Below are positions 4,296 to 60,718 of a stretch of DNA of 64,000 nucleotides, one piece after another. Origin of the DNA: Ferrovibrio sp. (lineage in GTDB: Bacteria > Pseudomonadota > Alphaproteobacteria > Ferrovibrionales > Ferrovibrionaceae); NCBI RefSeq assembly GCF_029255545.1, contig NZ_JANLJJ010000091.1, forward strand, positions 58,965 to 122,964, given 5' to 3'. Position numbers and translations under genes: made by a program. The notes below the pieces were generated by a model. It did no database searches. It had not been told where the DNA came from and worked only from the letters and a program-made list of their open reading frames with translations. The stretch's first letter is position 1. Each line of letters starts with the position of its first letter.

Positions 4296-7058
4296 ATGCT
4301 GACGCTGGGCAGCCTCGCCTTTGCCACACCGCTGGCGCTGATTGCACTGCTCAGCCTGCCGATTCTGTGGTGGCTGCTGCGCATAACGCCGCCGACGCCC
4401 AAGCAGGTCACCTTCCCGCCGCTGCGTCTGCTGCTTCTGCTGAGGCCGAAGGAGGAAACCCCAGCCCATACCCCGCTCTGGCTGCTGCTGCTGCGGCTGC
4501 TGATTGCGGCGCTGGTTATCATCGCCCTCGCCGAGCCGGTGCTGAACCCGCAGACCAGCCAGAGCAACAACGCCGCTCTGGTGCTGGTGATCGACGATGG
4601 CTGGACAGCGACACCGCGCTGGCGCGAGCGGCTCAACCGTGCCGACGCCGTGCTGGAAAGCGCCCAGCGAGATGGTCGCCCGGCCCTGCTGATCACCACT
4701 GCAGCGCCGGCCAGCGGCGAGGCAGTCCAGCCCGGGCCATTGATGCCAGCCGGAGATCTGCGCCCCGTCGTAGCCGCCCTGCAGCCCAAAGCCTGGTCCA
4801 GCGACCGCGCCGCCGTCGTGCAGGCCCTGATCCAGGCCCGCCTGCCCGAAAGTGCGGAAACCATCTGGCTGAGCGATGGCCTGCAGGACGACGCATCCGG
4901 CGAGGCCGCCTACACCCTGGCGGAATGGCTGCTGCGGCTCGGGCCGCTCAGCGTCATCACGGCCGGGCGGGATGATCTCTCCCTGGCCCTGCTGCCGCCG
5001 TCCGTCAGCGCCCAGAGCGACATCATCACCCTGCGTCGCCCTGCCGGCGCCAATGATACCCGCAGCCTGACCCTGCGCGCCGCGACCGACCAGGGCCGTA
5101 TCCTGGCACGCGAGACGATGTCTTTTGCCGCTGGCGCCGAAACGGCAACGCTGAAACTCGACCTGCCGAGCGAATTGCGCAACCAGCTGTCACGGCTCGA
5201 GATCGAGGAACAGCCGGCCGCCGGTACCGTTCAGCTTCTGGATGACCGCTGGCGCCGCCGGCCGGTCGGGCTGGTTTCGGGTGGCGCGGTGGAAACGCGG
5301 CAGCCCCTGCTGGGTGACCTGTTCTATCTTGAGCGTGCGCTGAATCCCTATGCCGAGTTGCGTAACGCACCGGTGGCCGAACTGCTGCAGCGTGAAATCG
5401 CCGTAATCATTATGGCCGATGTGGCGCAGTTGGTCGGCGGCGAAGGCCACCAGTTGGAAGACTGGGTCGAACGCGGCGGCGTATTGCTGCGCTTCGCCGG
5501 TCCGCGCATGGCGGAGACGACCGACAATCTGCTGCCTGTGAGGCTGCGCCAGGGCGCCCGCCAGCTCGGTGGCGCGTTGTCGTGGTCGCAGCCGCAGCGC
5601 CTGGGTCCTACGCCAGAAACCAGCCCGTTCTACGGTCTGGGGGGCGCCAGTGAGGTGAGTGTCAGCCGCCAGGTGCTGGCCGAACCAGAACCGCAACTCG
5701 GCGACAAGACCTGGCTGCGCCTGGAAGACGGCACGCCACTGGTCACCGCCACCCAGCGCGGCAAGGGCTGGGTGATCCTGGTGCATACTTCGGCCAATAC
5801 GCTGTGGTCGGATCTTGCGCTGAGCGGCTTCTATGTCGAGATGCTGCGCAAGGTGATCGATCTGTCGCATGGCGTCGGCGGTAACGGCGAAGCGGCCGAC
5901 TTGCCCCTGCCGCCACTGACCGTGCTGGATGGCTTTGGCCGCGCGGTCGAACCCGGGCCGGCCGTACAGCCGCTGCCGGCCCGCGCGCTGGCTACCACGC
6001 AACCCGGCCCGCGTCATCCGCCGGGCTGGTATGGCCGGCTCGATAGCCGTCAGGCGTTGAATGCCGTGACCGCCGATACCGTTTTGCGTGCCGTTGACCG
6101 CTGGCCCGCCGACGTCGTGCTGTTGAATCTCGACCAGACCAGCCGCGAAACCCGCCTGCTGCCCTGGCTGCTCACGGCCGCTCTGCTGTTGTTCCTGGCC
6201 GACTGGCTGATTGGCCTGGCCCTGCGTGGCCTGCTGCCGCGCCTGCGCCGACCGGCGACCGCCGCCGCCCTGCTGCTGGCATTGCTGTTCGCCGCCAGCG
6301 TCGGAGCCCAGCCACGCCGCAATACGCTGTCGGCCGGAGATGAATTCGCGCTGAAAGCCTCGCTTGACCTGCGGCTGGCCTATGTCGTCACCGGCCAGGC
6401 CGATATCGACCAGATGAGCCGCGCCGGCCTCTATGGCCTGACCGAGGTGATGTATCGCCGCACCTCGATCGAGGCGGCCGAACCGCTCGGCGTCAATCTC
6501 GAAGCCGACGACATCTCGCTGCTGCCTTTCCTCTACTGGCCGATCAGTCCGGCCCAGCCACAGCTTTCCGATGCCGCACTGCGTCGGCTCGATCAGTTCA
6601 TGAAGACCGGCGGCATGATCCTGTTCGATACCCGCGATCAGGCGATGGGCCTGAGCGGCACGGCGGCCAGTCCGAACACTGACAAGCTGCGCCAACTGCT
6701 GGCCAAGCTCGACATTCCGCCGCTGATGCCGGTGCCGGATGATCATGTGCTGACCAAGGCGTTTTACCTGATGCAGGATTTCCCGGGCCGTTACAGCGGC
6801 GGCACTTTATGGGTGGAGCGCAACCCCGGCGGGGACAAGGATGGCGTTACCTCCATCGTGATCGGCAGCCACGACTATGCCGCCGCCTGGGCGATGGATG
6901 CCAATGGCCGGCCGCTCGCCGTCACCGTGCCAAACAATCCGCGCCAGCGCGAATTCGCCTACCGCTTTGGCATCAACCTGATGATGTACACGCTCACCGG
7001 CAACTATAAGGCCGACCAGGTTCATGTCCCGGCCCTGCTCGAACGGCTGGGCAACTGA
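4296..7058 (+). CDS. BatA-type N-terminus / DUF4159 large membrane protein
   Basis: 920 residues. The start at 4296 lies two bases after the DUF58 stop and is followed at once by the BatA-like membrane anchor (residues about 6-28, PILWWLL, then a PP.P..VTFPPLRLL linker and a second helix at 60-82). A VWA-like region follows, beginning ALVLVIDDGW. Two helices near residues 628-680 precede a C-terminal DUF4159 domain (LRLAYVVTGQADIDQMSRAG, LLPFLYWPI, GGMILFDTRDQ), which has a class I amidotransferase-like fold in the family. The catalytic Cys of real amidotransferases is not evident, so it is probably a non-enzymatic sensor or scaffold in the envelope. Confidence 0.92.
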   Translation: MLTLGSLAFATPLALIALLSLPILWWLLRITPPTPKQVTFPPLRLLLLLRPKEETPAHTPLWLLLLRLLIAALVIIALAEPVLNPQTSQSNNAALVLVIDDGWTATPRWRERLNRADAVLESAQRDGRPALLITTAAPASGEAVQPGPLMPAGDLRPVVAALQPKAWSSDRAAVVQALIQARLPESAETIWLSDGLQDDASGEAAYTLAEWLLRLGPLSVITAGRDDLSLALLPPSVSAQSDIITLRRPAGANDTRSLTLRAATDQGRILARETMSFAAGAETATLKLDLPSELRNQLSRLEIEEQPAAGTVQLLDDRWRRRPVGLVSGGAVETRQPLLGDLFYLERALNPYAELRNAPVAELLQREIAVIIMADVAQLVGGEGHQLEDWVERGGVLLRFAGPRMAETTDNLLPVRLRQGARQLGGALSWSQPQRLGPTPETSPFYGLGGASEVSVSRQVLAEPEPQLGDKTWLRLEDGTPLVTATQRGKGWVILVHTSANTLWSDLALSGFYVEMLRKVIDLSHGVGGNGEAADLPLPPLTVLDGFGRAVEPGPAVQPLPARALATTQPGPRHPPGWYGRLDSRQALNAVTADTVLRAVDRWPADVVLLNLDQTSRETRLLPWLLTAALLLFLADWLIGLALRGLLPRLRRPATAAALLLALLFAASVGAQPRRNTLSAGDEFALKASLDLRLAYVVTGQADIDQMSRAGLYGLTEVMYRRTSIEAAEPLGVNLEADDISLLPFLYWPISPAQPQLSDAALRRLDQFMKTGGMILFDTRDQAMGLSGTAASPNTDKLRQLLAKLDIPPLMPVPDDHVLTKAFYLMQDFPGRYSGGTLWVERNPGGDKDGVTSIVIGSHDYAAAWAMDANGRPLAVTVPNNPRQREFAYRFGINLMMYTLTGNYKADQVHVPALLERLGN

Positions 7059-46115: not shown

Positions 46116-46489
46116 GGACAGGGTTTCAGGATCGCGTCCTGGTCAGGCGCGCTGCCGGGGAAGTAACTGCCGACATCGCGGCAGCTTCCCTTGATGCAGA
46201 TCTGCCAGTCGGCGCCGGTGTAACCCGAGCGCGTCAGGATCAGCTCAGGCTGTGGCGGGCGCTGCGGGCGCCAAGCCCAGAAGCCGTTTTCGAGTCTCGC
46301 GCCTTCGCCCGGTTCCATGCCGGCGCCGCTGCCCTGCACGGCGGCGCGTTCAAGCTGCAGGCCGGCCGATGTGGCGCGCCAGCTCTCGCGCCACTCGGTT
46401 TTCTGCACGCTGTGGGTCCAGCGCAGCTCGGTTGCATCGACGCCAAGCGCGACCATCGCCGCGCCCAGCACGAGGCAGAGGCCAGGCAT
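46112..46489 (-). CDS. DUF1850 domain-containing protein
   Basis: 125 residues. A short hydrophobic N-terminus (LCLVLGAAMVALG) could anchor or export it. The DUF1850 core has LRWTHSVQKTEWRESW, and the glycine-rich ARLENGFWAW near the middle. Three cysteines, two of them close together (ICIKGSC), are present. DUF1850 proteins regularly follow the fused permease of TAXI-type TRAP transporters, as here; the function is unknown, perhaps an assembly or accessory factor. ATG overlaps the permease stop. The stop shares TTAA with the convergent hydroxylase gene. Confidence 0.9.
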   Translation of the reverse strand: MPGLCLVLGAAMVALGVDATELRWTHSVQKTEWRESWRATSAGLQLERAAVQGSGAGMEPGEGARLENGFWAWRPQRPPQPELILTRSGYTGADWQICIKGSCRDVGSYFPGSAPDQDAILKPCP

Positions 46490-48582
46490 CAGGCCGCCGT
46501 GGTTTTGGCCCGCCGGATCTTCCACCAGTGGAAGACAAGGAAGCTGACGGTGAGCGCCGCCGCGATCTCGTCGGTAACCGGCAGGGCCACCACGAACAGG
46601 AAGGCTGCCGCCGTCGCCCAGATGCGTTCCGGCCAGCTCATCGGGCCAAGCAGCCAGGCGCTGGCGGCGCCGCCCCACAGGCCAACCGCGATCACCGCCT
46701 TGAACAGCACATAGGCGGTATCGAACCAGGTGCCGCCCTGCAGCATCAGCGCCGGCGTATAGACCGCCATGAACGGCACGACATAACCGGCAATGCCGAT
46801 CTTGGTCGCCGTCACCGCGATTTTCATATGGCTTTCCTTGGCGATCGACGAGGCGGCGAGCGCGGCGAGCGCCACCGGCGGCGTCAGATCGGCCATGATG
46901 CCGAAGTAGAACACGAACATGTGGCTGACGATCAGCGGCACGCCCATTTCCAGCAGCACCGGCGCAGCCATCGAGCTGGTGATGATGTAGTTCGGGATGG
47001 TCGGCAGGCCGGTGCCGAGGATCAGGCAGGCCACCATGGTCATGATCAGGGCCAGCAGCAGGTTGTCGCCGGCCACCGCCAGGATGCCGCGCGCGATGGC
47101 ATTGGCCAGGCCGGTCATCTGCATGATGCCGATCAGGATGCCGACCAGCGCGCAGGCCATGCCCACGCCGAGCGCGCCCTTGGCCGCGTCGGCGAAGCTG
47201 TGCAGCAACAGCCGCTGCGCCTCCAGGCCGCCCTTGACGAACCAGGTGGTGACGATCAGCACGGCAATCAGCGTGACAGCCGCCACCTCGATGCGCAGGC
47301 CGATCACCTGATAGAGCATCGCCGCGGCCAGGCCGAGCACGATCCAGAAGACGAAGCGCAGCAGGATGCTGCGGGTCGTGACCGTGGCCTGCTGGCCGAG
47401 GATCAGGATGGCGGTCAGCGCCATGCCGATGGTGCCGGCGAACAGCGGCGTGAAGCCGGTGAACAGCAGATAGACCAGCACGCCGAGCGGCAGCAGCAGA
47501 TACCATTGCTTGCGGATCGCCGTCAGTGCGTTCGGGCATTCCGATTTCGGCATGCCGGTCAGGTTGCGGCGGCCGGCCTCCAGATGCACCATCCAGAAGG
47601 CGGAGCCGAAGTACAGCAGCGCCGGGATCACCGCGGCCAGCGCGATATCGGAATATGGCACGCCGATCGTCTCGGCCATGATGAAGGCCACCGCGCCCAT
47701 CACCGGCGGCATGATCTGGCCGCCCATCGAAGCGGTCGCCTCGACCGCGCCGGCGAAACGTGGCGTATAGCCGAAACGCTGCATCAGCTTGATGGTGAAC
47801 TGGCCGGTGGTCAGCACGTTGGCGACGCCCGAGCCGTTGATGGTGCCCATCAGGCCCGACGAGATCACCGCCACCTTGGCCGGACCGCCCTTCTGGTGAC
47901 CCACGGTGCCGAGCGCGATGTCGTTGAACAGCTGGATCATGCCGGCGCGCTCGAGCAGGGCACCGAACAGGATGAACAGGAAGATGAAGGTCGCCGAGAC
48001 GAAAGTCGGCGTGCCATAGATGCCTTCGGTGCCGAGGAACAGCGTGTCGATCACCTGCTCGATGTCGAAGCCACGATGCACCAGGAAGCCCGGCAGCTCA
48101 CGACCGAACAGGGCATAGGGAATGAAGATGGCGCAGATCAGGGGCAGCTCCCAGCCCATGATGCGGCGCGCGCCTTCGACCACCAGCGCCACCACGATGG
48201 CGCCGACAATCAGGTCGACCAGGATCGGATCGCCGGCGCGCAGGATCAGGTCGGCTTCGAACACCCAGTGGTAAAAGGCCAGCGCGAACCCGAGCAGGCC
48301 AAGCGCCCAGTCATACCAGGGCACGCGGTCGCTGCTTTTGCCGTGGCGATAGCGGAACAACACGAAGGTGAGCAGCAGCAGAAAGCCGACATGCAGGCTG
48401 CGCAGCACCTGGGAGGAGAGCGGGCTGAACGCCGCGGTGATGATCTGGAAGAAGGTGAATACGACGGCAATGTAGAACACCGCCTTGCCGTGCCAGCCGA
48501 CCAGCTGGGTCAGGCCATGCGTCGGATTCTCGCGATCGATGATGGCCGGGGTCTCTTTATCGGCGGCGTTGCTGGCGGTCAT
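46489..48582 (-). CDS. TRAP transporter fused permease (4TM/12TM), TAXI type
   Basis: 697 residues with about 18 hydrophobic segments, combining the small and large TRAP subunits. Signatures include GGLMGTINGSGVANVLTTGQ-like text (SSGLMGTINGSGVANVLTTG), GQIMPPVMGAVAFIMAE and CLILGTGLPTIPNYIITSS. It imports a solute with Na+, fed by the TAXI binding protein 84 bases upstream. The 3' end overlaps the DUF1850 gene. Characterised TAXI systems carry glutamate or other carboxylates, but the substrate here is unknown. Confidence 0.96.
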   Translation of the reverse strand: MTASNAADKETPAIIDRENPTHGLTQLVGWHGKAVFYIAVVFTFFQIITAAFSPLSSQVLRSLHVGFLLLLTFVLFRYRHGKSSDRVPWYDWALGLLGFALAFYHWVFEADLILRAGDPILVDLIVGAIVVALVVEGARRIMGWELPLICAIFIPYALFGRELPGFLVHRGFDIEQVIDTLFLGTEGIYGTPTFVSATFIFLFILFGALLERAGMIQLFNDIALGTVGHQKGGPAKVAVISSGLMGTINGSGVANVLTTGQFTIKLMQRFGYTPRFAGAVEATASMGGQIMPPVMGAVAFIMAETIGVPYSDIALAAVIPALLYFGSAFWMVHLEAGRRNLTGMPKSECPNALTAIRKQWYLLLPLGVLVYLLFTGFTPLFAGTIGMALTAILILGQQATVTTRSILLRFVFWIVLGLAAAMLYQVIGLRIEVAAVTLIAVLIVTTWFVKGGLEAQRLLLHSFADAAKGALGVGMACALVGILIGIMQMTGLANAIARGILAVAGDNLLLALIMTMVACLILGTGLPTIPNYIITSSMAAPVLLEMGVPLIVSHMFVFYFGIMADLTPPVALAALAASSIAKESHMKIAVTATKIGIAGYVVPFMAVYTPALMLQGGTWFDTAYVLFKAVIAVGLWGGAASAWLLGPMSWPERIWATAAAFLFVVALPVTDEIAAALTVSFLVFHWWKIRRAKTTAA

Positions 48583-48666: not shown

Positions 48667-49629
48667 TTACTTGATCATGCCCTTTTCCTTGTAATACTTC
48701 TCGGCGCCCGGATGCAGCGGCACCGGCGGGTTCGCCGCCATGGCTTCCTTCTTGATGCCCTTGGCCGCGGAATGCGCGGCATAAAGCTGATCAAGACCCT
48801 CGACCATCGCCTTGGTCATCTTGTAGGCGAGGTCATTGCTGACCTTGTCGGTGGAGACGAAGTAATTGCCGACCGCGGCGGCCGGCACGGCGGCGTCCTG
48901 GCCCTTGTAGGTCCCGGCCGGGATCGTGTCGGTGAGGTAGGCCGGATCGCCGATCTTCTTCACCACGTCGGCCGGAACCGGCACGATGACGATATCGACC
49001 GAGTTGGCGAGGTCGCGGATCGAGGCGACGCCCAGGCCCGCCGACTGCAGGGTGACGTCGAGCTGGCGGTTCTTCATCAGGTCGACCGACTCGCCGAAGC
49101 CGAGATACTCGACCTTGGAGAAATCCTTGTAGGTCAGGCCGGCGGCGCCCAGCACGGCGCGGGCATTGATCTCGGTCCCCGATTTCGGGGCGCCGACGGA
49201 AATGCGCTTGCCCTTCAGGTCAGCCAGGGTCTTGATGCCCGAATCCTTGCTGGCGACGATCTGGATGTAGTTGTTGTAGGCGGCGGCGATCACCCGCAGC
49301 GAGGTCAGCTTCTGCGGGAAACCCGTTTCGGCATCGCCCTTCCAGGCATTCGAAAGCGTGTCGCCGAGCGTCAGCGCGATCTCGCCCTTGCGGGTATTGA
49401 GCAGATTCAGGTTCTCAACGCTGGCCTTGGTCGGCTGTACCTGGATTTTCGCACCCGGCATGGCCTTGGTGTAGACGTTCGACAGCGCAACGCCGATCGG
49501 ATAATAGGCGCCCGAGGTACCACCAGTCAGAATGTTGACGAAATCCTGCGCCTTGGCCGCACCTGCAGTGACGGCAAGGGACAGGGACAGCGCCGCGGCA
49601 GCGACAAATCTCCGGCGGGTATGGCTCAT
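48667..49629 (-). CDS. TAXI family TRAP solute-binding protein
   Basis: 320 residues. Signal peptide of about 28 residues (RRRFVAAAALSLSLAVTAGAAKA). Mature part begins with the TAXI motif NILTGGTSGAYYPIGVALSN, followed by TKASVENLNLL, LKGKRISVGAPKSGTEINARAVLGAAG and a C-terminal HPGAEKYYKEKG, all typical. It delivers solute to the fused permease downstream. Ends with the short KYYKEKGMIK seen in many TAXI proteins. The GGGAGGAACC before the ATG is a good ribosome site. Confidence 0.96.
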   Translation of the reverse strand: MSHTRRRFVAAAALSLSLAVTAGAAKAQDFVNILTGGTSGAYYPIGVALSNVYTKAMPGAKIQVQPTKASVENLNLLNTRKGEIALTLGDTLSNAWKGDAETGFPQKLTSLRVIAAAYNNYIQIVASKDSGIKTLADLKGKRISVGAPKSGTEINARAVLGAAGLTYKDFSKVEYLGFGESVDLMKNRQLDVTLQSAGLGVASIRDLANSVDIVIVPVPADVVKKIGDPAYLTDTIPAGTYKGQDAAVPAAAVGNYFVSTDKVSNDLAYKMTKAMVEGLDQLYAAHSAAKGIKKEAMAANPPVPLHPGAEKYYKEKGMIK

Positions 49630-49677: not shown

Positions 49678-51510
49678 TTACCGGCTGGGGGAGGATTGGG
49701 CAATTGCTTTGTCCGCCAGTCCGGCCCCGGCCGAGGCGGCCGCCCGCGCGGTCAGCAGGTTGCCCAGCAAGGGCAGCGCATAGAGGGCCATGATCGCGCA
49801 CCAGTAGATTGCCTCGCGGTTGTGCAGGGTCTCGATCAGCAGCACCAGCACCGGCAGGCAAAGCAGCAGGAAGCCCAGCACGGCCTCCCAGCCGAAACGG
49901 GGATTGCTCCCGGCCTGCGCGGCCGGGCGAACGAAGCCGGCCGCCAGGGCAAAGCGCGCCGCACCGGTCTCCCGCCTGCTGGTTAGCAGACGCAAAACGA
50001 TGAAGCCGGTGATCGGCAGCAGAAAATAGTCGATCGGAAAATCGCGATAGCGGCCGGCCACCACCAGCATGACGCCGTGATAGACGGCCCACAATGCCAG
50101 CAGGCCATAGATCCATTCGGCAAGCCGCGCGCGTTGCAGGGTGGCGTGGCTGGCCAGCGTCGCAGCCGGAACGCGGGCGCGGCCGGCTCCGAGATACAGC
50201 GGCGCGAAGCGACGGACCTCGGCAAGGCCGGCACCCAGCGGACGCAATGGCCCCGCTGGCCGATCGCTCCCGCCCAGGCGATCGAGCAGTTCGGCGAACA
50301 GCAGCGCGGCGAACACGCCCTGCACCGAGGCCAGCACGGCGAATTCGATCAGATGCCGGGGCGAATAATTGTATTCCAGGCCGTGTTCGATGGCGGCCGC
50401 CAGCAGCACGGCGAGCGCCTGCGCGAACAGCACGGCGGTGAGCATGGCGCGCGGCGGCAGGGCCGCCAGCTGCTGCGCCCGCACCACCATCAGGATAAGC
50501 CCCAGCAGCAGCGACAGGCCGGCGAATAGCGGCCATTCCGGCAGGTCGGAGACCATGCCGCCGACGTCGAATTTCGGCTGCCGGACTTCGTCGAGCACGC
50601 CCCAGGCGGCGCCGACGGTGCCTTCCAGCCGCTCCTTCCAGGGTTGGTCGAAGGCCTCGACCAGGTTGTAGGAGAGCTTCTCGCGTTCGGCCAGTTGCAG
50701 GAAATCGGTGATGAAGCCGGCGGCCTCGATGGTCGAGGGAATCGCCTCGCGGCGCGAACGACCCTGGCTCGGCCAGCCGACTTCGCCAATCACCACCGGC
50801 TTGCCCGGCAGCTTGGCCTGCACCGTGCGATAGACCTCCATGATATGCGGCATGGAATGCGCGACGCTGATCGGCATATCCTCCCAGTAGGGCAGGAAAT
50901 GCACGGTGACGAAATCGACCTCATCAAGCAGTTGCGGGAAGCGCAGCCAGAATTCCCATACATCGGCATAGGTCACCGGCTGCTTCACCGCCGCCTTGAC
51001 CCGGCGGATCTGGGCAATCAGCTGATCGACCGTGAGATCCTTGCGCAGCAGCACCTCGTTGCCGACGATCACCGACTTGATGGTGCCGGGATAGCGGTTG
51101 GCCAGCCGGATGCCGGCGTCCACTTCGGCATCGTTGATTGCCGGCTCGCGGCCAAGCCAGATGCCCTGCATCACCTGCAGGCCGTATTTACCGGCTTTTT
51201 CCGGCACGACCTCCAGGCCCTCGCGGGCCGTGTAGGTGCGCACGCCTCTGGTGATGCCTTGCAGGCTGGCCAGATCCTCTTCCACCTGGGCCGCGCTGGG
51301 ATAGATCTTGTCCAGCGGCCCCTGCCCGCGCCGGAACGGCGCGAAGGACAGGCTTTCGATCATGCCGACCTTGGGCCCGCCAGGATCATGCCCCACCTGC
51401 ACCGGACGGTTCGGCCACCACCAGATCAGGATGGTAAGCGCCGCGCCCAGCGCGAGGCAGAGCAGCAACAGCAGGAAGCGGGTGGCCGTGTTCGGCCTCG
51501 GCGCATGCAT
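49678..51510 (-). CDS. GH17-domain membrane protein, NdvC-like beta-glucan enzyme
   Basis: About 610 residues. A signal-anchor helix (14-33) leads into a periplasmic GH17 domain (about 50-330) with both catalytic glutamates: E155 in VGNEVLLR and E246 in VIGEVGWPS (numbered from the ATG at 51519). About eight membrane helices follow to residue 600. The layout resembles Bradyrhizobium NdvC, which works with NdvB to make cyclic beta-(1,3),(1,6)-glucans; the GH17 enzyme may act as a transglycosylase creating branches or rings. It lies 65 bases downstream of a GH17-GT2 synthase. ATG 51510 is used for its weak GGAT site; 51519 is possible. Confidence 0.9.
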   Translation of the reverse strand: MHAPRPNTATRFLLLLLCLALGAALTILIWWWPNRPVQVGHDPGGPKVGMIESLSFAPFRRGQGPLDKIYPSAAQVEEDLASLQGITRGVRTYTAREGLEVVPEKAGKYGLQVMQGIWLGREPAINDAEVDAGIRLANRYPGTIKSVIVGNEVLLRKDLTVDQLIAQIRRVKAAVKQPVTYADVWEFWLRFPQLLDEVDFVTVHFLPYWEDMPISVAHSMPHIMEVYRTVQAKLPGKPVVIGEVGWPSQGRSRREAIPSTIEAAGFITDFLQLAEREKLSYNLVEAFDQPWKERLEGTVGAAWGVLDEVRQPKFDVGGMVSDLPEWPLFAGLSLLLGLILMVVRAQQLAALPPRAMLTAVLFAQALAVLLAAAIEHGLEYNYSPRHLIEFAVLASVQGVFAALLFAELLDRLGGSDRPAGPLRPLGAGLAEVRRFAPLYLGAGRARVPAATLASHATLQRARLAEWIYGLLALWAVYHGVMLVVAGRYRDFPIDYFLLPITGFIVLRLLTSRRETGAARFALAAGFVRPAAQAGSNPRFGWEAVLGFLLLCLPVLVLLIETLHNREAIYWCAIMALYALPLLGNLLTARAAASAGAGLADKAIAQSSPSR

Positions 51511-51575
51511 GACTATCATCCGTTGGGCTTGGAGCTGGCGGCCGCCGTCACAGGAATCCGATCACCGTGATGCGA

Positions 51576-54227
51576 TCATTGGGCCGGCGTACCCTGTGCG
51601 GGCGCCGAGGTGACGACTGGCGCGACGACCGGGGTCGCCTGGGCCGGCGCGGCCTCCTTGCTGGGCGGCTTGGGGGCCGTGCTGATCGCGGCCAGCACCA
51701 GCGAGGCCCAGTATGGCACCGACTGCGCCCACATCACGATGGCCCAGAGTCGCGCCTCCGGATCCTCGCCACCCTGGAAATTCCACATGCCGATGCCGGC
51801 CAGCACCAGCAGAGCCGCCAGCAGCACTTCTTCCTGCGCCATGATCAGGGCCTGCACGAAGGCGGCCTGGTCTTCATGCTTCGGCGTGCGAATGAAGGGC
51901 AGCTTGGAGGTGAACAGGCCAAACAGCATCGCCTTGGCGATGGTGTAGGTCAGCGCCAGGCCGGCGAGGCCGGCGCCCAGCCGCTGCCGCAGCGTGCAGG
52001 GCACGCGGATTTTGTAGAGCCAGAGGAACTGCGCCAGCTTGGCGCCGAACACCGCCACCACCGGCAGCAGGAACAGGGCCAGCGGCAGCTCGAAATATTT
52101 CGGCATCACCAGCACGCCAACCGTCCAGGCCAGCGAGGCGATGGCGAAGACCAGGCCCAGCGCATCGGCAAACCACGGCATCCAGCCGGTGACGAAATGG
52201 TAGCGCTGCATCGGATCGAGCTTGCGCTCGTCGCCCGGCAGCATGTCGCGCCAGTGCCGCTTGATGATCTGCACCGCGCCATAGGCCCAGCGGAAGCGCT
52301 GGCTCTTGTAGCCCGAGAAGGTGTCCGGCGTCAGGCCGTAGCCGAAGCGACGGTCGGTATAGATCGAATGCCAGCCGCCGGCCAGCAGGCGCAGGCCCAT
52401 CTCGGCATCCTCGCAGATGCACCATTCGGCCCAGGGGCCGACATGCTCGATGGCGCTGCGGCGCACCAGCGTCATGGTGCCGTGCTGGATGATGGCGTCG
52501 CGCTCGTTGCGCTGAACCATGCCGATCTGGAAGAAGCCGGCATATTCCCAGTTGATGAATTCCTTGAAGGTGTCGTTCTTCCAGTCGTAATGATCCTGCG
52601 GCGCCTGCACGAAGCCGATGTCGGCGCGGTCGAAATACGGCACCAGCGATTTCAGCCAGTCGGGTTCGACCAGGTAATCGGCATCGATCACGCCGATGAT
52701 CTCGACATCCTTCGCCGTGTTGCGCAGGGCGAAATTCAGCGCGCCGGCCTTGAAGCCCTGCAGCGGCGCGACATGGAAGAAGCGGAATTTGTCGCCGAGC
52801 TGGCGGCAGTATTCCTCGACCGGCCGCCACACCGCTTCGTCCTTGGTATTGTTGTCGATCACCAGCACTTCGTAATTCTGGTAATCCAGCCGCGCCAGCG
52901 CATCGAGCGTCTTCTTCAGCATTTCCGGCGGCTCGTTATAGGCCGGAATATGGATCGAGATCTTCGGCCAGGCGCGCTCGATATCGGTCTTGAACGGCAG
53001 GAAATGCCGCTGGCGCCGGCTGGCCCAGATCACTTCCGAAAGCTCCAGGCCTTCCGCCAGCACCACCATGAACAGCAGCAGCAGCAGCGGCAGCAGCATC
53101 GCCCACATCAGCGCGATGCCCGGACTCATGTAGGTGCGCAGGCCGGAATCGACCACCATGACCAGCGCGCTGGTCACGATCTGGATCAGCGCGATGAAGA
53201 AGAAGCGGCCGGAGAACCGCAGGTCGGACCAGCGCGCCAGGAACCACGCCATCAGCGGCAAGGCCAGCAGGATCGAGGCGGCCGCCAGCTGCGGCCAGTG
53301 CGGCCGGTCGCTGACCGGGCCGACCATGGGGAATTTCGGCGTGCGGTCGGCATTGTAGACGCCCCAGTAGGCGCCAACCGAGCCCTCGATGTTGCGCTTC
53401 CACGGCTGGTCAAAGGCTTCCTGGATGAAATAGTCGAGGCCACGCTGGTTGGCGATGTTGAGGAAGCCGCGCAGGAAGGCGGCCTGGGTGGTCGGACTCG
53501 GCAAGGCGTCGCGGCGGATGCGACCTTCCGACGGCCAGCCGATCTCGGTGATCACCACCTTCTTGGTCGGATAGGCGTCCTTGACCTGCTGGTAGCGCGA
53601 CAATGCGTATTCAACGGCCTTGTCCGGCGCCTGGCCTTCCCAGTAAGGCAGCAGGTGGATGGCGATGAAATCGACTTCGCGGCCTAGCTGCGGATAGCGC
53701 AGCCAGATATCCCAGGTCTCGGCGGTGGAAACCTCGATATGCCTGTCGGCCAGTTCGGTGCGGACGCGGCGGATATACTGCACCAGATCCTGGATCGGCA
53801 TGTCGGCGCGCAGCAGGGTTTCGTTGCCGACCAGCACGCGGCGGATGTTGCCGTGCGTGCGCGCGGCCTGCACCAGCGCCTCGATTTCCTGCTCGTTGCG
53901 CTCCAGCCGGCCATCCAGCCAGGTGCCCTGCATCACATCAAGGCCATAGCGGCCGGCGATCTTGGCGATCTCGCTCTGGCCATCCAGCATCGAATAGGTG
54001 CGGATCTGCTTCACCTGGCCGGCGAGCAGCTGCATGTCCTGCTCGATCTCGGCCTCGGAGGGGAATTTGTTGTTGCGCGGGTCCTGGTCGCCGCGGAACG
54101 GCGTGTAGTCGACGCCGTTCATCACCTCGCCCCAGGGACGCGGCTCGATCGGACGGTTCATGTAGGCCCAGCCGGCCAGATTGAGCACGGCAACGAGGAA
54201 GAGGACGAGAAGTCCCGAATAGCGCAT
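51576..54227 (-). CDS. GH17-GT2 fused beta-glucan synthase, NdvB-like
   Basis: 883 residues. N-terminal helix (5-20), then GH17 with E136 (VGNETLLR) and E228 (VITEIGWPS), a block of helices (about 314-395), and a GT2 domain with D458 (VIDNN), D515/D517 (VIDADY), E606-D607 (CEDAE) and QRFRW (643-647), all the processive synthase residues. More helices follow, then a Pro/Ala tail. It should polymerise UDP-glucose into a beta-glucan across the inner membrane, with the GH17 part modifying the product outside. Homology to Bradyrhizobium NdvB suggests osmoregulated periplasmic cyclic glucan. Linkage and product size cannot be read. Confidence 0.93.
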   Translation of the reverse strand: MRYSGLLVLFLVAVLNLAGWAYMNRPIEPRPWGEVMNGVDYTPFRGDQDPRNNKFPSEAEIEQDMQLLAGQVKQIRTYSMLDGQSEIAKIAGRYGLDVMQGTWLDGRLERNEQEIEALVQAARTHGNIRRVLVGNETLLRADMPIQDLVQYIRRVRTELADRHIEVSTAETWDIWLRYPQLGREVDFIAIHLLPYWEGQAPDKAVEYALSRYQQVKDAYPTKKVVITEIGWPSEGRIRRDALPSPTTQAAFLRGFLNIANQRGLDYFIQEAFDQPWKRNIEGSVGAYWGVYNADRTPKFPMVGPVSDRPHWPQLAAASILLALPLMAWFLARWSDLRFSGRFFFIALIQIVTSALVMVVDSGLRTYMSPGIALMWAMLLPLLLLLFMVVLAEGLELSEVIWASRRQRHFLPFKTDIERAWPKISIHIPAYNEPPEMLKKTLDALARLDYQNYEVLVIDNNTKDEAVWRPVEEYCRQLGDKFRFFHVAPLQGFKAGALNFALRNTAKDVEIIGVIDADYLVEPDWLKSLVPYFDRADIGFVQAPQDHYDWKNDTFKEFINWEYAGFFQIGMVQRNERDAIIQHGTMTLVRRSAIEHVGPWAEWCICEDAEMGLRLLAGGWHSIYTDRRFGYGLTPDTFSGYKSQRFRWAYGAVQIIKRHWRDMLPGDERKLDPMQRYHFVTGWMPWFADALGLVFAIASLAWTVGVLVMPKYFELPLALFLLPVVAVFGAKLAQFLWLYKIRVPCTLRQRLGAGLAGLALTYTIAKAMLFGLFTSKLPFIRTPKHEDQAAFVQALIMAQEEVLLAALLVLAGIGMWNFQGGEDPEARLWAIVMWAQSVPYWASLVLAAISTAPKPPSKEAAPAQATPVVAPVVTSAPAQGTPAQ

Positions 54228-54423: not shown

Positions 54424-54909
54424 TCAGTCCCGGCTCAGGTGGCCAAGCGGCAGGGCGGCGTCGGTTTTGACCGGGCGGATGACGAAATTCGACCGGACAT
54501 CCTTCACCATCGGCAGGCTCAGCAGCCGCTCGGTCAACAGTTCCTCATAGGCCGCCAGGTCGGGCACCACCACCTCGGCGACGAAATCCGCCTCGCCCGA
54601 CACCATATGGGCTGCCACCACTTCCGGAATTGCCTCCAGCAGGCGCTGGTGCATGGCGGCATTCTCGGTGGAATGCTTCTCAACCTTGATATCGACATAG
54701 ACGGTCAGGCCAAGGCCGACCTTGCGGCGATCCAGCACCGCACGATAGCCGCGGATATAGCCCTCCTGCTCCAGCCGCTTGACCCGGCGCAGGCAGGGCG
54801 ACGGCGACAGGCCGACTTCTGCCGCCAGGTCGACATTGCTCAGGCGGCCATCACGCTGCAGGGCGGCGAGAATCTTGTGGTCGAAGGCGTCCAGCGATGG
54901 ATTTGGCAT
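54424..54909 (-). CDS. Lrp/AsnC family transcriptional regulator
   Basis: 161 residues. Helix-turn-helix at about 9-55: LDAFDHKILAALQRDGRL, SNVDLAAEVGLSPSPCLRRV, KRLEQEGYI. The C-terminal RAM ligand domain follows (LTVYVDIKVEKHSTENA, SGEADFVAEVVVPDL). It probably responds to an amino acid. It diverges from a DMT transporter across 129 bases with long-spaced inverted arms, so it likely controls amino-acid export by that gene, a common arrangement. The C-terminal ten residues are not conserved in the family as I know it. Confidence 0.95.
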   Translation of the reverse strand: MPNPSLDAFDHKILAALQRDGRLSNVDLAAEVGLSPSPCLRRVKRLEQEGYIRGYRAVLDRRKVGLGLTVYVDIKVEKHSTENAAMHQRLLEAIPEVVAAHMVSGEADFVAEVVVPDLAAYEELLTERLLSLPMVKDVRSNFVIRPVKTDAALPLGHLSRD

Positions 54910-59659: not shown

Positions 59660-60718
59660 ATGCGCCGCCGCGATTTCCTCCGCACGTCCATTGCCTCTGG
59701 GGTAGCCGCCGGTCTGGCAACCAATCTGGGCGGCCTTCGCCAGGCGGCCGGCCAGACGCAGACGGCGCAGGCCCCGGACACGCCCGCCACCGCCGGCTTT
59801 TTCCGCATCCTGACCGGCTCGGCCCATACCACCGCCTTCCCGGTCGGCGTCACCATCGCCTCCGCCATTTCCAATCCGCCGGGCAGCCGGCCCTGCGACA
59901 AGGGCGGCTCCTGCGGCGTGCCCGGCCTGATCGCGGTGGCGCTGACCAGCCCGGGCTCGGTCGCCAATCTGGCCGCGGTAGGCAATGAAAGCATCGAATC
60001 CGGCTTCGCCCAGGCCGATCTGGTCGTCAGCGCCTGGCAGGGCGAGGGCCTGTATTTCCGCCGCGCCAAGCAGGCCAATCTGCGTGTGCTGGCCAGCCTG
60101 TATCCGGAAACCATCCATCTCGTGGTCCGCCGCGGCAGCGGCATCGCCGAACTGCGCGACCTGGTCGGCAAGCGCGTCTCGATCGACCGCAGCGGCTCGG
60201 GCACGCGATTCAATGCCGAGATCATCCTGACCGCCTATGGCGTGCGGCTGCAGCAGGTGAAGGTACTGGAAGTCGATCCGGGCGAGGCTGCCGACCTGAT
60301 GGCCCGGGACGAACTCGATGCCTTCTTCCTGATCTCGGGCCAGCCGGCCCCCACCGTCGGCGACCTGACCGACCGCAGGATCGCCGAACTGGTGCCGCTC
60401 GCCGGCAAGCAGATCGAGGGCGCGCTGCGCCGGCATCCCTTCTTCAGCCGCGATATCATCCCCGCCCGCACCTATACCGATGTGGCGGAGACCGAAACCC
60501 TGAGCATCGGCATGCAATGGGTGGTGCCGGAAAGCCTGAACGCCGACCTGGCCTATGAAATCCTGCGCGCCCTGTGGCATCCGCAGAACCGCCGCATTCT
60601 CGATGCCGGCCCCGCCATGGCCCAGAAAATCCGCCTCGGCACCGCCCTGCTTGGCGTCTCCGCGCCGCTGCATGCCGGCGCCGAGCGCTTCTATCGCGAG
60701 ATGAAGCTGATCACCTGA
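59660..60718 (+). CDS. Orphan TAXI family TRAP solute-binding protein, Tat signal
   Basis: 352 residues. A twin-arginine signal (MRRRDFLRTSIASGVAAG) predicts Tat export. TAXI fold motifs: FRILTGSAHTTAFPVGVTIASAIS, LVGKRVSIDRSGSGTRFNAEIIL, and the ending HAGAERFYREMKLI. An insert SRPCDKGGSCGVPG carries two cysteines that could form a disulfide and is not in the other TAXI protein of this window. No TRAP permease is adjacent, so it may serve a distant permease or act as an extracytoplasmic sensor. Convergent with GST at TGATCA. Confidence 0.92.
   Translation: MRRRDFLRTSIASGVAAGLATNLGGLRQAAGQTQTAQAPDTPATAGFFRILTGSAHTTAFPVGVTIASAISNPPGSRPCDKGGSCGVPGLIAVALTSPGSVANLAAVGNESIESGFAQADLVVSAWQGEGLYFRRAKQANLRVLASLYPETIHLVVRRGSGIAELRDLVGKRVSIDRSGSGTRFNAEIILTAYGVRLQQVKVLEVDPGEAADLMARDELDAFFLISGQPAPTVGDLTDRRIAELVPLAGKQIEGALRRHPFFSRDIIPARTYTDVAETETLSIGMQWVVPESLNADLAYEILRALWHPQNRRILDAGPAMAQKIRLGTALLGVSAPLHAGAERFYREMKLIT

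Follow-up and report, generated by a model that had tools for sequence, protein, structure and literature searches.

A tandem pair of GH17 membrane proteins in a Ferrovibrio genome

The window, a 64,000-nucleotide stretch of a Ferrovibrio sp. genome, contains two adjacent genes encoding GH17 membrane proteins, one of them fused to a GT2 synthase, as the original prediction had recognized and correctly located. The first in reading direction encodes the NdvB-type protein P0001 (51576-54227, minus strand; 883 aa), which comprises an N-terminal anchor, a periplasmic GH17 domain, membrane helices, a cytosolic GT2 domain, and a further set of membrane helices. The second encodes the NdvC-type protein P0002 (49678-51519, minus strand; 613 aa), composed of an anchor, a periplasmic GH17 domain, and a seven-helix membrane domain. 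The untranslated gap between them (51520-51575) measures 56 bp, not 65 as initially given, and a terminator scan of this interval found no terminator-like site, with counts at chance level. GC content by codon position is coding-like in both genes (GC3 0.88 and 0.84), and the two may be co-transcribed. The tandem arrangement recurs in 10/10 genomes of the same genus group, so the adjacency of the pair is not a product of chance; across the window genome's order, both genes are found in 17/18 genomes and are tandem neighbors in 13.

Upstream of the pair, on the same strand and 196 bp before the NdvB start, lies a gene for an Lrp/AsnC regulator (54424-54909, minus strand). The regulator gene also adjoins the pair in the closest named relatives, two Ferrovibrio loci (L003 and L005) and one from an alphaproteobacterial MAG (L002), where the P0001 counterpart matches at 88-89% and that of P0002 at 62-64%. 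A promoter scan picked up a single weak candidate promoter ahead of NdvB (54390-54362), with site counts at chance level. Downstream, 48 bp beyond P0002, are genes for a TAXI-type receptor (NMT1_3; 48667-49629, minus strand) and a DctM-type TRAP permease (46489-48582, minus strand), both of which are inconstant neighbors of the pair. A second TAXI-type (NMT1_3) receptor gene is present in the window at 59660-60718 on the plus strand, away from the glucan genes.

Both proteins retain their catalytic residues

The GT2 core of P0001 (residues 418-660; 52248-52976, minus strand) is recognized by Pfam PF13641 with an E value of 9.6e-29 and follows the GH17 domain within a single membrane protein. 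Its DxD, ED, and QxxRW motifs are all present, in the form of D515/D517, E606-D607, and Q643-x-x-R646-W647, and these seven residues are invariant in the 48/48 NdvB rows of our alignment; the first GT2 Asp, D458, is present in P0001 and in 35/48 rows. The full GT2 residue set that had been claimed for the fused protein is thus intact. The core is flanked by pre-GT2 membrane helices (residues 312-402; 53022-53294, minus strand), which are homologous to the P0002 helices that precede its cytosolic loop, and by post-GT2 helices (residues 685-843; 51699-52175, minus strand). Using phmmer, we aligned the cellulose synthase chain 7lby with residues 369-820 of P0001. Among the post-GT2 helices lies the sequence FIRTPK (residues 778-783; 51879-51896, minus strand), which resembles the gating loop of BcsA; the F, T, and K of the corresponding FxRTxK motif are present in 48/48 NdvB rows, and the motif is absent from P0002.

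In the remaining 13/48 NdvB rows, I, M, or V stands in place of the first GT2 Asp, that of the sequence DNNT. These rows include the NdvB proteins of Bradyrhizobium and Pseudolabrys (L066, L047, and L077), and given this replacement, donor binding by the namesake NdvB may be unusual.

The GH17 domains occupy residues 29-312 of P0001 (53292-54143, minus strand) and residues 41-330 of P0002 (50530-51399, minus strand). Their Pfam GH17 scores (PF00332; 24.2 and 21.4 bits, respectively) fall under the curated cut-off of 28.2; despite this, the assignment is certain because phmmer searches against solved structures matched both to RmBgt17A (PDB 4wtp), with E values of 1.1e-30 for P0001 and 1e-21 for P0002. 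Each protein presents a TIM barrel with paired catalytic glutamates (E136 and E228 in P0001; E155 and E246 in P0002), in agreement with the initial reading of the sequence; the 4wtr active-site mutant carries Ala at the position to which the nucleophile Glu aligns. The Glu pair is kept in 48/48 NdvB rows and 79/79 NdvC rows. Structure prediction led to the same assignment as the domain searches: the full P0002 model (pLDDT 92.1, pTM 0.90) has as its top fold match RmBgt17A (4wtr), with an E value of 2.3e-13 and a TM-score by target length of 0.86. The structure alignments covered 62/78 locus rows (A1) and 47 rows (A2).

Phylogeny places the pair in the NdvB and NdvC families

We built a tree from the GH17 domains of 69 proteins, retained after a 74% identity filter and rooted on short GH17s; five loci (L147-L151) were dropped as duplicates. 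P0001 falls in an NdvB-type clade of 22 rows (ultrafast bootstrap 97, SH-aLRT 96) and P0002 in its sister, an NdvC-type clade of 39 rows (89/93). The Bradyrhizobium pair is split over the same two clades as the window pair, pseudomonad-type NdvB lies inside the clade of P0001, and the outgroup GH17s stand outside both. With both lineages represented in both clades, the NdvB/NdvC duplication must be older than the split of the sampled lineages. P0002 also has the composition of an NdvC, namely a GH17 domain and a C-terminal membrane domain with no GT2. The original prediction had noted a likeness to NdvB/NdvC and proposed a phylogeny that might have grouped the proteins with non-glucan enzymes; neither groups in that way, each stands beside its Bradyrhizobium counterpart, and likeness gives way to family membership by reciprocal clades.

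On this evidence the window encodes a standard NdvB/NdvC system, arranged in tandem and lacking ndvD. Our ndvD query, a Bradyrhizobium gene named by position only, after the gene list in the accessible text of PMC3927601, had no match in the window genome or in a second Ferrovibrio genome (G417); the same query matched five Bradyrhizobium/Xanthobacteraceae-type genomes at E <= 1.5e-44. In Bradyrhizobium, ndvD is reportedly needed.

In group 4 of the osmoregulated periplasmic glucans, NdvB (GT2 plus GH17) and NdvC form beta-1,3 and beta-1,6 linkages, according to the portions of PMC10514313 available, and from this family chemistry a periplasmic beta-(1,3)/(1,6)-glucan is the probable product of the Ferrovibrio pair. 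Searches of the 97.6%-complete genome for OpgG, Glycoamylase (Cgs), and GH94 gave no family match, where the control searches for the three exceeded the cut-off in only one control genome each; the pair is accordingly the only recognized periplasmic-glucan system of this genome.

NdvC-type proteins accompany NdvB across Pseudomonadota

We searched 397 Pseudomonadota genomes with each protein. NdvC-type proteins were found in 45 genomes and NdvB-type proteins in 57; both were present in 45, NdvC alone in 0, and NdvB alone in 12. The 45 NdvC genomes represent 15 family groups, as tallied by eye from family assignments. A Fisher value computed for this co-occurrence takes no account of relatedness among the genomes, and we do not read it as a probability. 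These counts derive from 63 genomes matched by the NdvC query (45 counted as NdvC, 12 with NdvB only, 5 with only short GH17s of ~300 aa, and G072, with a weak C-terminal match) and from 59 matched by the NdvB query, 57 of which were counted after exclusion of G205 and G073 (GT2 without GH17). Two genomes in the set, G254 and G126, are fragmentary.

A further test addressed 22 NdvC loci in which no NdvB flanked the gene or the available sequence was too short for a verdict; 21 of them came from searchable genomes, some of which were also part of the order survey above. NdvB was encoded elsewhere in 20/21; a genome search found no NdvB in the exception, G438, a 2.6-Mb Methylococcaceae MAG in which NdvC is present. 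The constant company of NdvB across the 397 genomes, together with the clade assignments, supports the proposal, made at the outset from the sequence, of a synthase and a remodeling enzyme acting on a beta-glucan.

Physical linkage of the two genes is variable. They lie within 1.2 kb of each other in 18/45 genomes, being divergent in 13 genomes of one family (the Bradyrhizobium arrangement), divergent in 1 other, on the same strand in 3, and convergent in 1; elsewhere they are on different contigs (20 genomes) or >200 kb apart (7 genomes). Unlinked NdvC-like genes occur at L165 (4592-6151, minus strand), L166 (4494-6047, plus strand), and L167 (4227-5849, plus strand), in genomes that have a dapE-adjacent NdvB, the pseudomonad arrangement (3/3 tested), or belong to the same family group. 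Several Bradyrhizobium-type genomes or loci (G191, G202, G250, L059, and L070) carry another, unlinked NdvC-like gene in addition to the NdvB-adjacent copy. Reyranella-type NdvC proteins (L010, L014, and similar) are longer, at ~644 aa, with ~320 residues after the GH17 domain versus 205-280 in most others.

The absence of NdvC from 12/57 NdvB genomes indicates that NdvB can act alone. One could accordingly suppose that NdvB both makes and cyclizes the glucan and that the GH17 of the NdvC-type protein works as a hydrolase, for trimming or recycling, instead of as a branching transglycosylase; many GH17 members are hydrolases in the available text of PMC11005184. We regard this as unlikely, however, as the P0002 model is closer to a transglycosylase without the plant-hydrolase subdomain (RmBgt17A, 0.86) than to plant hydrolases (0.57, the TM-score by target length for the endoglucanase 1ghs), and a B. 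japonicum ndvC mutant is severely reduced in beta-(1,6) residues, as reported in the accessible sections of PMC4881576. GH17 domains from NdvB-like proteins are themselves characterized transglycosylases (PMC11005184, available text).

The NdvC membrane domain is related to the NdvB scaffold

Searches of P0002 against Pfam and NCBIfam named nothing beyond weak GH17 matches, so we compared profiles of its membrane domain (residues 326-609; 49693-50544, minus strand) with profiles of the NdvB helices. An NdvC C-terminal profile (79 rows) matched an NdvB profile (20 rows), in the part that follows GT2, with an E value of 1.1e-5; when the comparison was split, the pre-GT2 part gave 9.7e-4, the post-GT2 part 1.8e-6, and the two joined 7e-9. 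With the TM+GT2 profile the score was 48.1, versus a maximum of 24.8 in 100 block shuffles of that profile and 12.9 on reversal. Larger profiles (104 NdvC and 48 NdvB rows) strengthened the match to 1.3e-9 unspliced and to 3.9e-15 with the GT2 domain spliced out. The alignment is colinear through all helices, and three elements of NdvB are missing from NdvC: the GT2 core, the FxRTxK motif, and a segment that contains one further helix. The membrane domain of P0002 is thus a homologue of the NdvB scaffold minus GT2, and because it is without the GT2 domain, the helix, and the gating-loop motif, NdvC cannot synthesize glucan.

Resemblance between hydrophobic helices can arise by convergence, in which case the NdvC membrane domain would be an independent anchor. 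In keeping with this, the match was not significant in the 20 Bradyrhizobium-type NdvC rows taken alone (E 0.37; spliced, 0.26) or when the NdvC domain was compared directly with GH17-free GT2 synthases (E 0.6, the best individual sequence being L153 at E 0.023). The structural model of the domain (pLDDT 92.4, pTM 0.89) returned no Foldseek match at E <= 0.001 and, by VIA-align, only GPCR-like helical bundles whose best Z of 8.7 is within the stated background, an outcome that weighs neither for nor against a BcsA-like fold. Convergence is nevertheless quite unlikely in view of the colinearity over the whole domain at the E values above, the separate matches obtained with the Ferrovibrio-type and the Reyranella/Roseomonas-type subsets, and the spliced score of 107.2, versus at most 40.3 in 60 shuffles, 17.4 on reversal, and 18.0 and 11.5 for two unrelated polytopic decoy families.

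Homology to the NdvB scaffold bears on the origin of NdvC, which appears to be a paralogue of the synthase, with the GT2 domain lost and the membrane shell kept. The derivation from a synthase is drawn through NdvB, since the direct comparison with GT2-only synthases is not significant; the post-GT2 part of NdvB does match these synthases (E 7.9e-4). That value and the 7lby alignment suggest that the NdvB helices are the synthase's own, which would favor loss of GT2 from NdvC over its insertion into an NdvC-like ancestor. The GH17 tree, in which the clades are sisters and not nested, would fit either direction. We did not find the scaffold relation in print, in a literature survey that lacked most subscription papers.

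Outside GH17, NdvC is most strongly conserved in two loops. One contains the signature RYRDFP (residues 490-495; 50035-50052, minus strand), with R490 kept in 104/104 rows and P495 in 102; the other runs from E563 (103) to N567 (101) (49819-49833, minus strand). Both are predicted to be periplasmic, on account of the cytosolic N terminus and the succession of hydrophobic segments, and would face the GH17 domain. NdvB has the related residues KYFELP at the RYRDFP position, which suggests that this loop of NdvC is a piece of the same scaffold that has been re-specialized.

Neighboring transporter genes

The original prediction had drawn attention to a TAXI transporter beside the pair. The genes are indeed there, downstream and on the same strand, yet we leave them and the DctM gene out of the system because they are inconstant neighbors in relatives; their inclusion as part of a glucan system was considered and rejected on this ground. 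That the pair and the TAXI/TRAP genes form a glucan-uptake or scavenging operon instead of a synthesis system is most improbable: the receptor gene follows at 48 bp with no terminator-like site between, and the receptor-to-permease order downstream of the pair is repeated at L004 and L009, but the GT2 catalytic set is kept in the fusion, the glucan genes of L002, L003, and L005 have near them another TAXI pair, 31-38% identical and encoded on the opposite strand, the TAXI genes of L006 lie 4.3 kb from the pair, and in other families the pair is located elsewhere in the genome. At L006 an ORF of 309 aa (5013-5942, minus strand) is located between the NdvB and NdvC genes on the opposite strand, and its start is GT2 glycosyltransferase-like (VLVPCYNEE).

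Discussion

We favor, at a probability of roughly 80%, a reading in which NdvB polymerizes and remodels a beta-glucan and NdvC adds beta-(1,6) linkages to NdvB's product. The cytosolic GT2 domain of the NdvB-type protein would use a nucleotide sugar to polymerize the glucan, which is probably beta-(1,3), and the chain would cross the NdvB membrane helices to reach that protein's own periplasmic GH17 domain, which could cut and re-join it, resulting in elongation or cyclization. The second periplasmic GH17, that of the NdvC-type protein, would then act as a transglycosylase that, on family precedent, adds the beta-(1,6) linkages. NdvC would depend on the product of NdvB and possibly on NdvB itself, through physical contact as a partner.

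A more specific account of NdvC, which we offer tentatively and whose odds we place just short of even, is that of a gutted synthase. After an ancient duplication, one copy would have lost its polymerase domain, a channel helix, and the gating-loop motif and gained the RYRDFP and E-x3-N loops; it would function solely in the company of NdvB, as a partner devoted to receiving the beta-(1,3) chain as it emerges and introducing (1,6) branches or kinks, and the unlinked NdvC-like protein of pseudomonad-like genomes would be the same partner. If the scaffold reading is true, the NdvC membrane domain is a synthase-derived docking or chain-receiving device, its role becomes testable, and the two conserved loops are named targets for mutation.

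The NdvB/NdvC pair is already a known system, and the Ferrovibrio-like pair is a further member of it. With this pair, the beta-(1,3)/(1,6) periplasmic glucan pathway reaches Ferrovibrio-like bacteria, and NdvB and NdvC are seen to be the two halves of a single ancient system shared by alpha- and gammaproteobacteria. What may be new, and family-wide, is NdvC as a synthase paralogue without a synthase, accompanied by NdvB in 45/45 and 20/21 genomes. A further prediction is that pseudomonads, whose NdvB-dependent glucans have been linked to biofilm antibiotic tolerance in the available text of PMC10237404, have an NdvC partner that has been overlooked. That same text proposes the pseudomonad family with the P0001 architecture as the maker of a cyclic beta-(1,3)-glucan and, in its accessible portions, mentions NdvC 0 times.

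Among known systems, the Bradyrhizobium NdvB/NdvC(/NdvD) system, which makes the cyclic beta-(1,3),(1,6)-glucan of group 4, shares with the window pair a GH17-GT2 fusion and a GH17 protein that ends in a membrane part. There, however, the two genes are divergent with a third, ndvD, between them, whereas those of the window are in tandem on one strand, 56 bp apart, in a genome with no ndvD match; and Bradyrhizobium-type NdvB has its first GT2 Asp replaced, while the window protein keeps it. The Pseudomonas "Orphan"/NdvB (Glt1, Glt3, and Glt7) likewise joins a periplasmic GH17 and a cytosolic GT2 in one protein, and pseudomonad-like NdvB shares the clade of P0001; in pseudomonad-like genomes, unlike the window, NdvB adjoins dapE (3/3 tested) and the NdvC-like gene is unlinked. 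RmBgt17A, a GH17 beta-1,3-glucanosyltransferase of Rhizomucor miehei (4wtp/4wtr), has the same catalytic fold with both glutamates, as befits the top structural match, but is a single-module fungal enzyme that lacks both a synthase and a membrane domain. OpgGH and Cgs (ChvB, or rhizobial "NdvB") also make periplasmic glucans but are unrelated enzymes, and the rhizobial beta-(1,2) "ndvB" described in the accessible part of PMC11842490 has the name alone in common with the system described here.
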